Shown: positions 12,144 to 40,384 of the stretch, one piece after another
Numbering within the stretch: position 1 is the first letter of the stretch
Layout of the letters: every line of letters begins with the position of its first letter
Assembly (NCBI GenBank): GCA_021807595.1
Contig: JAKBCS010000002.1
Span: 66,178-106,561, forward strand
Reading direction: 5' to 3'
DNA length: 40,384 bases
DNA from: Planctomycetota bacterium
GTDB taxonomy: Bacteria > Planctomycetota > Planctomycetia > Gemmatales > Gemmataceae
Translations under genes and position numbers: made by a program
The notes under the pieces: model-generated
Seen by the model: the letters and a program-made list of their open reading frames with translations, nothing else
Databases searched by the model: none
Told to the model about the DNA's origin: nothing

Positions 12144-12171
12144 AGAGTTGAGAGTTGAGAGTTGAGAGTTG
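12144..12171. repeat. Tandem repeat, four copies of AGAGTTG
   Basis: The heptamer AGAGTTG occurs four times without interruption just upstream of the DUF1573 gene start. It is of the same kind as the short-phrase repeats near 28881 and 30011. No coding or regulatory role is visible. Confidence 0.8.
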
Positions 12172-12340
12172 ACATTAAACTAACTTTGCTTGCCTGTCAA
12201 GTGCAATTCGTTTTTTCGGTTCTCCAGTTCTCCGGCGTTGCGCGCTGTAATGGCCAAGGACGCGGCGGTCTCCACCGGCATAAACTTGGAGAACAAGTCC
12301 ACGGCACGCAACGCTTCGACAAAACCGGAGGCCGTACTCA

Positions 12341-35472: not shown

Positions 35473-37515
35473 CTACTCACTGCCTCCCTCGCCGGTACCC
35501 ACACCGGCCGCGGCGAGGGCCATCTCGGTCTTATTTAGAAAAATGTCCTCCCATGGCGCGACCTTCGCTTCGGTGCCGGACGAATCGTCTCGAACGATCG
35601 CGTCATTCTCCGCGTTGGACGAATCGTCGAACGCAACAGCGTTGGGACTCTCGTTGACTGGTTCGGCTAAGCTATTCGCCAACTCCTCAATCGACGAGCC
35701 GGGCAGCCCCACGCTGCTCAGCCGCATCGACGTACTCTCCCCCACCCACCCAGTCGCGCCGAAGACGTTGCTGTTCTGGATGGGGACGAGACTCGATGCG
35801 GTGGGCGCGAAAGCGGTTCCGGTCGTGGTCGGGGCGGGCGAGGCCGACGCGGTAAAGCTGAAGGAGACGAAACCATTGGCCGCGCCGCCGATTGTTGGAA
35901 GCGAGACGACCGGCACGGCAGGCGTGCCGGCCGATGCGGGTGGTGCTGCGCCGGGTGGAACGCCCACTTGCACGGAACCCGGCGGGAAGCTGAGGGTGCC
36001 GGACCCCGCGTACAATCCGCCGCCCGCCCGCCCGCCGGCGGACATGGCGAAGTAGCTGCCCGATGAGCGCGAAAAACTACTGGAACGAGAAGAGCCACTG
36101 GAACTGGTTCCGAGGCTGAGACCACCGTACCCCGAACCCTGAATCGTGGGAAGCAGCCCGATCGGGATGGTGGACTTGGCCAAGAACGGGACGAGTGTAT
36201 TGGCGATAGGCGATCCCAAGCCGGTGGCAATGTCGTAGCCGGTTCCCGCCGAGTATCCGTTCGAGCCGGTTGTGATGTCGTGGAAGAGCTTGCTGTAGTT
36301 GCCGTTGCTCAACGAGTTGTACAACGTTGTTTGCACTTCGTTGGTGTCGAGCGCCTTTCCGCCTTGGGCAATGCGTTGCTGATCGGCCAATGCGATAATC
36401 GATGCCCACTGCGGGGAGCCAGCGCTGGTGCCGCCTACTTCGGTCCAGCCGCCGCTCAGTCCGTAAGCCGGACTGGGGGTGCTGTCGTAGACGGCGTATC
36501 CGGTGTTGGGGTCGGCGTTGTAGGCCACATCGGGCGTCATGCGCGAGTACGAGTAGGCTCCGGTAGAGGGGTTGTAGACGTTGGGGAAGCCGTAGGTATT
36601 GTTAATCGAGGCCTGATTGGATTGATACGACGGCTCGCCTTCGTAGGCCGCCGCACCCCCGCCGCTGCCGGACCAAGCCGATTCGCTCCCGTAGACGGCT
36701 CCTCCCGACGAGGTGGACGTGGTGGACAGCGTCGTTCCTCCCACGGCCAGCACATACGGAGACGTTGCCGGATAAATGGGACCGTTATAGGCTCCATTGT
36801 CTCCCGATGCGGCGACGAACACCACGCCGGGGTTGGTGCTTGGGGGGATGAAATACGAATCGTAGCTGCTTTCGGTGCTGAATTCGTTTTGTCCCCAGCT
36901 CATGGAGACGGCGACTACCCCCTTTTGAGACGCGGCGTACTGCACGGCGGTGAGAAGACTGCCGGAACCGGATAGATTCTGGTTGCCCGCCTCGACGAGG
37001 AGAATGTTGGCCTGCGGAGCGATGGCATGCGCCCATTCCACGTCCAGCGAGGTTTCAAGCGCCCAACCGCCGGTAGAGTCTTGACTCAGACTGGAAGCCG
37101 AACCCCCGTTGTACGAGACGACCTTCAACGTCGGTCCGTTGGTGGTGTTGAACGCTTGCAGGTTGAATTGGGTGTTAAACTGCTTCACGTCGCTGACGAT
37201 GTTCGGATCGTAGTAGGCGTCCACGATAGCGATCGTCTCGCCGGCTCCGGTGATGCTTACCCCGTTGACCTGCGGAATGGAATTGAAGCCGTAGGCTTGC
37301 TGGATCTGCTGGGGCGTGTAGCCGGACACGGCGGGGCCGGTCATCGGCGCGGTCTGCGGCACCACCGCCAACATCGGCTCCACCACGCCGTTGGCCGACA
37401 GTAACGCGCGCGTCTCCAATTCCTCCAGTTCGAGCAGCGTGCGCCGCTCTGGACGCTTCTGCTTCTCGACGACATAGGGCGAAAACCATTTCTTGAGATT
37501 GCGCGGCAATCTCAT
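35473..37515 (-). CDS. S53 family serine-carboxyl protease (sedolisin) with LEPR-XLL-like N-terminal motif
   Basis: 680 residues. The N-terminus has the basic, then LELEELETRALLS motif that marks many exported planctomycete proteins. The catalytic core spans about residues 65-445: Glu154 and Asp158 (ALETSLDVEWAHA), oxyanion Asp239 (AASGDNG), nucleophile Ser364 (GGTSAGSPQW), and the calcium-site end DITTGSNGYSAGTGYDIATGLGSP. No long pro-domain is visible, unlike classical sedolisins. The last 230 residues are Ser/Gly/Pro-rich and probably form a flexible surface or attachment part. A GTG at 37533 with an ideal GGAGG is a possible alternative start. Acid-active extracellular proteolysis is the family norm. 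Confidence 0.85.
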   Translation of the reverse strand: MRLPRNLKKWFSPYVVEKQKRPERRTLLELEELETRALLSANGVVEPMLAVVPQTAPMTGPAVSGYTPQQIQQAYGFNSIPQVNGVSITGAGETIAIVDAYYDPNIVSDVKQFNTQFNLQAFNTTNGPTLKVVSYNGGSASSLSQDSTGGWALETSLDVEWAHAIAPQANILLVEAGNQNLSGSGSLLTAVQYAASQKGVVAVSMSWGQNEFSTESSYDSYFIPPSTNPGVVFVAASGDNGAYNGPIYPATSPYVLAVGGTTLSTTSTSSGGAVYGSESAWSGSGGGAAAYEGEPSYQSNQASINNTYGFPNVYNPSTGAYSYSRMTPDVAYNADPNTGYAVYDSTPSPAYGLSGGWTEVGGTSAGSPQWASIIALADQQRIAQGGKALDTNEVQTTLYNSLSNGNYSKLFHDITTGSNGYSAGTGYDIATGLGSPIANTLVPFLAKSTIPIGLLPTIQGSGYGGLSLGTSSSGSSRSSSFSRSSGSYFAMSAGGRAGGGLYAGSGTLSFPPGSVQVGVPPGAAPPASAGTPAVPVVSLPTIGGAANGFVSFSFTASASPAPTTTGTAFAPTASSLVPIQNSNVFGATGWVGESTSMRLSSVGLPGSSIEELANSLAEPVNESPNAVAFDDSSNAENDAIVRDDSSGTEAKVAPWEDIFLNKTEMALAAAGVGTGEGGSE

Positions 37516-37640
37516 GCCCGTACCCTCGAACACGGTACAATCCTCCAAAAGTGGCGACGAATAGGATGAGGAGAGGAATGGGCGGACTTTACCCGAATGG
37601 AGCTATTTTGATAACTTGGTAAAGTCAAGTAAAGGAAATA

Positions 37641-38822
37641 ATGATGAAAATGTTATTTTTTTCTCAACTCGTCAGCTGGCATCTCGTGAGAGCGAGGGGC
37701 TTTTTCAAGGCGGGGATATTCGTCGCATGCCTGTCGGGATTCGGCTGTTCGTCGAAACCGTCGCCCGAGCCGTTGTGGATAGGCCATCTCGTGCCGTTTG
37801 AAGGCGCGAACCGCACGGTTGGCCAGCACGCGCGGCAAGGCATCGAAGTGGCCGTCGCCGAGGCGCGAGGCAACGAACAGGCGATGTCGGGGCGCGCGTG
37901 TGCTTTCCTGCACGTCGATAGTGGAGAAGAATCCAAGACGATGCGTGCGGAGACGGTGCGGCTGCTAACCGTGAATCGAGTCGTCGCCTTCCTGGCCGGG
38001 TTCGACGCCGCTTTGACGGAAACCTTGGTGCGCGAGAGCCGATCCTACGGCGCGCCGGTTGTCGTACCCGGCGAATGGCCTGACCCTTCGGACAGCGACA
38101 TCGTCTTTCCTCTGGGAATTCCGCCGTCCACGCGGGGTAGATTGCTGGCGCGCCATGCCGCAAACAATTTGAAACTCCTTCGGGCTGCCGTGTTGACCGA
38201 TAGCCGTCGTCCCATCGCTTCCGCCGTGGCCAGCGCTTTTCTCAAAACCTGGCCGCGCGACTCCGGTCGAGCCGCCGAGGAATGGACCTTCACCACCGCC
38301 GACGAACGCGACGAACGCCTTGGCCGCATTCTGGCCTCCCATCCCTCGGTCGTCGTGTTGGCTTGTTCCGCAGCCGATTTTCGTCTGCTCCGTCCGCGAC
38401 TGGCCGAAGTGCTGCCGAAAATCCCTCTTCTCTACGCGGGGGAAGACGAAGGCATCGGCGCTCTCCAAGCCGAGCTGGAAATGCGCTCCGAGGTGTATCT
38501 CGCCACCGCCTACTGCGCCGAAGGGTTAACGGAGGCCGGCCGGGCCTTTGCCAAGCGCTACGAGGAGCGCTTCCACGAGTCGCCCGATCTTTTCGCCGCC
38601 CAGAGCCACGATGCCGCACGCCTGCTTCTCGAAGCGCTCCAACAGACCGCCCCTCCGACCCGAGACGCCCTCGGCAAGCAACTCGCCCAACTGGAATCTT
38701 TCGAGAGCGTGACGGGGCCGATCCATTGGAAAGACCGTCGACCTCGACGTCGCGTATTTTTGGTATCGCTCCGCGACAATAAGCCCAAACTTATCTCCAC
38801 CCTGGAGCCGGAAGAGAATTAG
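37641..38822 (+). CDS. ABC-type periplasmic-binding-protein-like lipoprotein (Leu/Ile/Val-BP type)
   Basis: 393 residues; AAAGGAA precedes the ATG. The N-terminus has a hydrophobic stretch and a lipobox-like LSGFGC, giving an acylated Cys36. The fold is the Peripla_BP_6 type: IGHLVPFEGANRTVGQHARQGIEVAVAEA at the start, the CAFLHVDSGE and VVAFLAGFDAALTETLV blocks, and a second lobe with VVVLACSAADFRLLRPRL and TAYCAEGLTEAGRAFAKRYEERFHESPD. The sequence ends SVTGPIHWKDRRPRRRVFLV. No permease or ATPase gene is nearby, so it may serve a distant transporter or act as a sensor. It is divergent from the protease, 125 bp apart. Confidence 0.75.
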   Translation: MMKMLFFSQLVSWHLVRARGFFKAGIFVACLSGFGCSSKPSPEPLWIGHLVPFEGANRTVGQHARQGIEVAVAEARGNEQAMSGRACAFLHVDSGEESKTMRAETVRLLTVNRVVAFLAGFDAALTETLVRESRSYGAPVVVPGEWPDPSDSDIVFPLGIPPSTRGRLLARHAANNLKLLRAAVLTDSRRPIASAVASAFLKTWPRDSGRAAEEWTFTTADERDERLGRILASHPSVVVLACSAADFRLLRPRLAEVLPKIPLLYAGEDEGIGALQAELEMRSEVYLATAYCAEGLTEAGRAFAKRYEERFHESPDLFAAQSHDAARLLLEALQQTAPPTRDALGKQLAQLESFESVTGPIHWKDRRPRRRVFLVSLRDNKPKLISTLEPEEN

Positions 38823-39036: not shown

Positions 39037-39567
39037 TTAGTACGCCTTTCTGCCGTTGAATCCGCCCATGCCTTTGCCGGCGAATCCACCGCCCATCATC
39101 ATGCCGCCCATGCCCATGCCGCCCATGCCCATACCACCCATGCCGCCCATGCCCATCATACCGCCCATGCCCATGCCGCCCATGCCCATCATGCCGCCGC
39201 CCATACCCATCATGCCGCCGCCCATACCCATCATGCCTCGCATGCCCATCATGCCGCCGCTCATGCCCATCATGCCGCCGCTCATGCCCATCATTCCCAT
39301 CATGCCGCCACTCATGCCCATCATTCCCATCATGCCGCCGCTCATGCCCATCATTCCGCCACTCATTCCCATCATGCCGCCACCGGAACTGGCCATCATG
39401 ATCTGCTGCTGGGCCATCGACACGGCCTGCATGAACATGGGATTGGGCAGCTGTGGAGCGATGCTGGCTCGCTGCGCCCGAATGGGGGCCGGTCGAGATA
39501 AGACCACGACCGTGGTTGCGAGCGCGAGAACATAGGAGAGATTGAGAAAGCGTTGGACAGAAAACAT
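39037..39567 (-). CDS. Secreted Met/Gly-repeat protein, copy 1
   Basis: 176 residues from the ATG at 39567 with GAGGG upstream. A signal peptide runs from MFSVQRFLN to about RPAPIRAQ. A short spacer with PQLPNPMFMQAVSMAQQQ follows, then about 110 residues made of GGMMGMx units (7 residues, 21 bp), sometimes contracted to GMGG, and a C-terminal GGGFAGKGMGGFNGRKAY. Beyond Met and Gly almost only Ser or Arg occur in the repeats. No family is recognised. Met clusters in exported proteins can bind Cu(I)/Ag(I), but no Cys or His is present, so that is only an idea. It lies 379 bp from a near copy upstream on the same strand. Confidence 0.75.
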   Translation of the reverse strand: MFSVQRFLNLSYVLALATTVVVLSRPAPIRAQRASIAPQLPNPMFMQAVSMAQQQIMMASSGGGMMGMSGGMMGMSGGMMGMMGMSGGMMGMMGMSGGMMGMSGGMMGMRGMMGMGGGMMGMGGGMMGMGGMGMGGMMGMGGMGGMGMGGMGMGGMMMGGGFAGKGMGGFNGRKAY

Positions 39568-39945
39568 GACGAAACCCTCTTGTAAGGAGAGAAGCGAAAT
39601 AGTATGCAGTCGTTCCGCCGTCGCGTACCGAGTGACCTCCGCTCGATCCCTGAGCCAATCCCTTCGGCAACGGTTTTTAATCGCTAATACCGAGAGATTG
39701 CTTCCGTCGTTTGGGTTGTTTGGTTCGCCCGAATATCGGGAGAAGGTTTGGAATGTTGGAGGGGATAGATCCTCCAAAAACTCCTAACAATCATGTTAAG
39801 TATGGCATCGCGAGAAAAAGCCGTCAAGCAGGAAAATCGGAATCTTGCGAAGAATTAAGAAATGACTCGATCGGGCATACAGACCTCCGAGGGAAGAGAT
39901 CTCTCCCCTCGGAGAGGAAAGCGAAGCGGGCGAGTAAGAGCTACA
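39568..39945. other. Spacer between the two Met/Gly-repeat genes
   Basis: 378 bp without a convincing gene. An in-frame upstream extension of copy 1 exists from a TTG at 39777, but its sequence lacks any signal-peptide or family trait. A possible minus-strand promoter (TTGACG at 39822-39827, 17 bp, CATACT at 39799-39804) would give a leader of about 225 bases. A small CTCTCC/GGAGAG hairpin (39902-39914) sits just after the stop of copy 2. Confidence 0.4.
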
Positions 39946-40384
39946 TCACAGAGCCTTTTTGCCGTTGAATCCACCCATGCCCTTGCCGGCAAATCCACCG
40001 CCCATCATCATGCCGCCCATGCCCATTCCACCCATGCCCATACCACCCATGCCCATACCGCCCATGCCCATCATGCCACCGCCCATGCCCATCATGCCGC
40101 CGCCCATGCCCATCATGCCACCGCGCATGCCCATCATGCCGCCCCCCATGCCCATCATACCGCCGCTCATGCCCATCATGCCGCCGCCCATACCCATCAT
40201 GCCTCGCATGCCCATCATGCCGCCGCTCATGCCCATCATGCCGCCGCTCATGCCCATCATTCCCATCATGCCGCCGCTCATGCCCATCATTCCCATCATG
40301 CCGCCGCTCATGCCCATCATTCCGCCACTCATTCCCATCATGCCGCCACCGGAACTGGCCATCATGATCTGCTGCTGGGCCATC
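39946..40384 (-). CDS. Secreted Met/Gly-repeat protein, copy 2, 5' part beyond the window
   Basis: The visible 145 residues start within the stretch equal to MAQQQIMMASSGGG of copy 1 and run to the stop. The first 60 or so visible residues are identical to copy 1 and the DNA differs there by a single base, which points to a recent duplication or gene conversion. The repeat region is 19 residues longer, with extra GGMMGMx units (Ser, Gly or Arg in the seventh place). The tail GGGFAGKGMGGFNGKKAL differs from copy 1 only in its last few residues. The signal peptide and start must lie outside the window. Confidence 0.75.
   Translation of the reverse strand, partial: MAQQQIMMASSGGGMMGMSGGMMGMSGGMMGMMGMSGGMMGMMGMSGGMMGMSGGMMGMRGMMGMGGGMMGMSGGMMGMGGGMMGMRGGMMGMGGGMMGMGGGMMGMGGMGMGGMGMGGMGMGGMMMGGGFAGKGMGGFNGKKAL

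Follow-up and report, generated by a model that had tools for sequence, protein, structure and literature searches.

Gly-Gly-Met repeats form the C-terminal tail of GroEL, where they are short and sit on a cytoplasmic chaperonin, and hydrophobic residues spaced by glycine make up the repeats of exported proteins such as silks and the glycine-rich proteins of plants. CusF, SilE, CopM and the N-terminus of Ctr1, which offer Met to Cu(I) or Ag(I) outside the cytoplasm, have either a defined fold or His/Met sites. CopM is reported to be encoded with a copper-responsive two-component system (PMC4335983). In yeast Pbp1, droplets of a Met-rich low-complexity region melt on oxidation by H2O2 and are restored by Msr (PMC8394241).

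The proteins encoded at the right end of the window studied here, a stretch of 40,384 nucleotides, have Gly-Gly-Met repeats in common with the GroEL tail but no chaperonin domain that gave a Pfam hit, and their likeness to silks and plant glycine-rich proteins is one of design, with Met as an unusual main hydrophobic residue. Like the Met-motif copper proteins they have Met available outside the cytoplasm, whereas no defined fold, His/Met sites or linkage to a copper-responsive two-component system was seen. The Pbp1/ataxin-2 region is likewise of Met-rich low complexity with a possible oxidisable weak self-association, although it is part of a larger cytoplasmic protein, unlike the exported window proteins, and we claim no homology.

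Gene 1 and its protein

Contig C27, one of the 282 contigs of a 5.67-Mb genome from an uncultured planctomycete (here called G000), is 106561 bases long. The window takes up positions 66178-106561 of this contig, and its right edge is therefore the contig end. Two genes of a Met-Gly array are located there, which we refer to as gene 1 and gene 2.

39037..39567, minus strand: gene 1 (array position c), full open reading frame including the stop codon, encoding an exported Met-Gly repeat protein of 176 amino acids
39575..39581, minus strand: AAGAGGG, likely ribosome-binding site of gene 1 as read from the sequence, 7 bases ahead of the ATG
39475..39567, minus strand: predicted signal peptide, residues 1-31 (sequence pattern, AF2 helix at 2-24, pattern kept in aligned members)
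39385..39474, minus strand: non-repeat head QRASIAPQLPNPMFMQAVSMAQQQIMMASS, residues 32-61, with a helix predicted at 43-60
39091..39384, minus strand: repeat body, residues 62-159, GGMMGMx heptads and then GGMGM pentads (21-bp and 15-bp tandem repeats), predicted to be disordered
39040..39090, minus strand: C-terminal tail GGFAGKGMGGFNGRKAY, residues 160-176, with 11 invariant columns over 16 aligned tails of Met-rich and non-Met-rich proteins
39946..40384, minus strand: gene 2 (array position b), cut off before its start where the contig stops, with tail GGFAGKGMGGFNGKKAL
40172..40384, minus strand: outermost 213 bases of gene 2, differing from gene 1 at one base; the contig is probably chimeric at this end

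The signal peptide of gene 1 is likely cleaved after IRA and before QRAS, and the mature start fits the ..A|QR or AQF pattern seen in the sequences and alignment of the genus family described below. The mature protein consists of 34.7% Met and 38.2% Gly and contains 9 GGMMGM units. It has 5 basic residues but lacks Cys, His, Asp and Glu altogether. The AF2 model had a mean pLDDT of 51.8, with helices only at residues 2-24 and 43-60, and the repeat body is accordingly predicted to be disordered. Neither Pfam nor NCBIfam profiles gave a hit to the Met-Gly proteins at E<=1, and Pfam gave none to 4 relatives, which supports the earlier description of exported, repeat-built, tandem proteins that belong to no named family. 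A match to the phi92 gp138 spike among PDB sequences (E 0.0033) was rejected because the alignment was compositional. In literature searches, the letters GGMMGM appeared only in an alginate hydrogel context, no paper joined methionine-rich, glycine-rich and planctomycetes, and none on Gemmata and glycine-rich was relevant.

As DNA of low complexity leaves several reading frames open on either strand, gene 1 might be a spurious frame in decaying repeats, or a Pro/Ile/Met frame on the opposite strand might be the real gene. We regard this as extremely improbable, because the changes between gene 1 and its orthologue in the sister genome G003 (94% identical) altered 16 of 54 Gly third positions and only 2 of 49 aligned Met codons, with 47 kept, and because the signal peptide and tail were conserved across 3 species. 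By simple difference counts per site, for which the alignment of repeats is a caveat, pS was 0.340 and pN 0.044 for gene c, so that synonymous differences were about 8 times as frequent as non-synonymous ones; the corresponding values (pS/pN) were 0.337/0.073 for gene b, 0.336/0.062 for gene a, 0.289/0.047 for the pair on C63 and C118, and 0.679/0.148 for the pair on C136 and C112. As judged from these sequence comparisons, it was confirmed that the frame of gene 1 is under purifying selection and not open by chance, and the excess of synonymous change together with the retained Met codons indicates that the Met-Gly genes are real.

Near-identity at the contig end

The 2 genes had been described as consecutive and near-identical, carrying the mark of a recently duplicated, slipping repeat. 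Gene 2 is, however, truncated. Counting from the end of C27 inward, its first 213 bases corresponded to gene 1 with one mismatch, while bases 206-324 (119 bases) were identical to the truncated gene in which another contig, C226, ends; the switch from the gene-1-like to the C226-identical sequence took place within a few bases. In G003, contig C171 carried 3 diverged genes in the order a-b-c, with 82-94% amino acid identity to gene 1. C226 aligned with the half of C171 that contains gene a, the 5' part of gene b and the left flank, and C27 with the half that contains the 3' part of gene b, gene c and the right flank. The flanking genes were syntenic between G000 and G003 on both sides.

Because the switch falls at a contig end within a repeat and the array in G003 is cleanly diverged, the simplest reading of the sequences is that both species probably contain a single three-gene array, and that the tip of C27 was wrongly extended with gene 1 sequence by the assembler; a fourth gene copy is a less simple alternative. 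Recent gene conversion between near-identical tandem genes, with the end of C27 correctly assembled, would also yield 213 bases with one mismatch in 2 genes of one array, but the position of the switch and the divergence of the 3 copies in G003 make this doubtful. The near-identity is thus probably an assembly artefact, and the array itself predates the split between G000 and G003, so that a recent duplication is not supported. The case illustrates how repeats on which a contig breaks off may mimic such an event.

Repeat numbers were fairly stable between orthologues, with sizes of 176/173, 170/169 and 234/234 amino acids in G000/G003, and fast slippage was therefore not general among them. 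The exception was the contracted gene a, of 94 amino acids in G000 versus 162 in G003.

A genus family with a common tail, and its wider counterparts

At least 6 Met-Gly loci were counted in G000, on C27 (2 genes), C63, C226 (2 genes), C103 (cut at the contig start) and C136, with one of the C226 genes probably being the same gene as the truncated copy on C27. G003 contained 5, G001 contained 2 and G002 a single fragment; these counts come from draft assemblies that tend to break at the repeats. At the DNA level, 2 consecutive GGMMGMx heptads occurred 37 times in G000 and were absent from 391 further genomes sampled across the phylum, none of these being one of the other 3 genomes of the genus.

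Both window genes end in a 17-residue tail with the consensus GGFAGKGxGGFNGKKAL, and the pattern GGFAGKG[MF]GGF[ND]G[KR]K[AP][LY] forms the end of every Met-Gly protein with a readable C-terminus, with the exception of the contracted gene a in G000. The same tail, more variable in its last 4 residues, was also identified at the end of exported Gly-rich proteins with Phe- or Leu-rich bodies, encoded on G000:C140 and G003:C89 (GFNGFG repeats), G001:C135, C319 and C363, and G002:C152. Since proteins with non-Met bodies end in it too, the genus family is defined by its tail and not by Met.

A different ending, GGKIGFxG, was absent from all 4 genomes of the genus and matched 20 of 95 genomes in the taxonomic family; outside this family the pattern alone matched 2 of 115 sampled genomes of the class. 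Most of the loci encoded exported Gly-rich repeat proteins with the motif at the very end and GGI, GGQ/GGF or Met-rich bodies, often in tandem (3 genes each in G073 and G035, 2 each in G034 and G004). A handful of matches, among them L125, L126, L127, L131, L133 and L144, were unrelated frames, and about a sixth of the genomes is therefore a fairer share for a similar architecture, that is, a signal peptide, an FRG-like head, Gly-rich repeats and a short Lys-containing tail. Like the window proteins, the GGKIGF-tail proteins combine a signal peptide and Gly-rich hydrophobic repeats with a short tail containing Lys and GF-G, occur in tandem copies, and gave no Pfam hit where tested. They differ in that their bodies are mostly Ile, Phe or Gln, and in the FRG-like head, which is missing from the protein of gene 1. 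Two of the GGKIGF-tail proteins, in G010 and G101, resemble the window proteins in having Met-rich bodies: L151 (G010:C5) and L152 (G101:C208) are Met-rich in the second half, with 19% and 29% Met overall, possibly through an independent event in another genus.

The head motif, [FYL]R[GPN] after the signal peptide, was picked after inspection of the sequences and was present in 10 of the 11 heads of the wider set (one of these proteins, in G090, being cut before its tail), in 7 of 10 genus proteins, including those on C136, C112, C140 and C89, and in 2 of 44 control ORFs, with 1.7 and 0.6 expected from shuffles. When a profile was built from the genus tail, the GGKIGF tails scored no better against it than shuffled sequence or protein bodies did. 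Because the profile fails on these ends, the head motif is post hoc and the window protein lacks it, we claim a common architecture for the genus family and the GGKIGF set, not proven homology.

In other genera, sequences that differed from the genus tail at one position belonged for the most part to response regulators or to unrelated frames. It was also noted that a protein in G020 ends in KGFGGF, similar to the genus tail. Matches in G043 and G009 were MG-rich stretches in large, different proteins. In G043, which belongs to another family of the same order, GGMMGMGG repeats (L017, C13, ~103809-104042) were located inside an open frame of 1538 amino acids with stretches that looked TPR-like and secretin-like by eye. 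In another genus of the taxonomic family, L042 (G030:C52, 2-511) encodes an exported protein with GGGFQMMGG repeats, cut at the contig edge.

Candidate roles of the Met-Gly proteins

The proteins are disordered by prediction, hydrophobic with glycine spacing, exported and multi-copy, with a constant tail and seemingly interchangeable sticky residues, a combination that suggests self-associating material. Our preferred reading, to which we give about an even chance, is that they represent a genus-restricted, multi-copy family of exported disordered Gly-rich repeat proteins that self-associate as envelope, surface-layer or matrix material. They would be exported by the Sec pathway and would associate by many weak contacts among hydrophobic residues spaced by glycine, in the cell envelope, the surface layer or the extracellular matrix. 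The constant tail would probably serve in anchoring, assembly or sorting, and the body would be free to vary, with Met in this branch and Phe, Leu, Ile or Gln elsewhere, so that Met may be one of several interchangeable sticky residues. Of the 3 roles initially suggested, a structural matrix fits best, because the same-tail proteins of the genus include Phe- or Leu-rich ones; copper capture and a redox buffer found no positive support. It is thus more likely that the window proteins self-associate as a structural material than that they are dedicated to binding copper.

The retention of 47 of 49 Met codons means that Met matters in this branch and would also suit a Met-specific role, and such roles are therefore kept in play. 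In one of them, the dense MM, MGM and MxxM motifs would act as a sponge that binds Cu(I) or Ag(I) outside the cytoplasm and protects the cell. The composition of 35% Met without His or Cys and the strong conservation of the Met codons agree with this, as do the Met-only motifs of Ctr1, such as MxMxxM, which are reported to bind Cu(I)/Ag(I) (PMC9117721). We nevertheless consider a metal sponge quite unlikely, as the genus contains same-tail relatives that are Met-poor, one of which (C140/C89) adjoins genes named by eye as rpsB/tsf-like. Inspection by eye of the flanks on C27, C226, C63, C136, C171, C281 and C334 revealed no recognisable copper gene, with few of the window neighbours profile-scanned, and there was no match of the CusF/SilE/CopM type in Pfam or NCBIfam at E<=1.

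Alternatively, oxidation of Met to its sulfoxide could absorb reactive oxygen species or dissolve an assembly, as in yeast Pbp1. The protein of gene 1 does contain a Met-rich region that is predicted to be disordered, as judged by composition and low pLDDT, and the melting of Pbp1 droplets by H2O2 offers a precedent by analogy (PMC8394241). However, the single MsrA and MsrB found in each of G000 and G003 show no evident signal peptide, so that recycling outside the cell by these two enzymes is not evident, and the non-Met relatives keep the architecture; an oxidant sink or redox-switchable matrix is accordingly unlikely. Dedicated copper binding and a recyclable redox buffer are both less likely than structural material.

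A combined version, in which a Met-Gly extracellular or envelope material responds to oxidation or soft metals and is assembled through a new C-terminal tag common to non-Met relatives, we consider rather unlikely; if true, it would be the equivalent, among secreted proteins, of Met-rich low-complexity domains that are switched by redox state. To our knowledge, proteins dominated by Met and Gly under purifying selection are rare, and those described here are nearly three quarters Met and Gly. Under the structural reading, a constant tail on bodies of differing composition would provide a handle on surface building in these planctomycetes, and since one design occurs naturally with Met, Ile, Phe or Gln, the residues that drive assembly could be compared directly.

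No conserved operon was seen around the Met-Gly loci, for whose neighbours most names were assigned by eye. The only neighbour common to the C27/C171 array and the C136 locus was a peptidase-like protein. The gene at 37641-38822 on the plus strand, adjoining the array and syntenic in G003, encodes a periplasmic binding protein-like product (Peripla_BP_6, E 1.1e-29). An exported sedolisin/subtilisin-like protein with the motif GTSAGSPQWA and no Pfam hit is encoded at 35473-37548 on the minus strand, and a second such protein was located near a Met-Gly gene at L013 (1913-3925, minus strand), giving 2 such loci with the window copy. At 12144-12172 of the window, the sequence AGAGTTG forms a perfect short tandem repeat of 4.1 copies.
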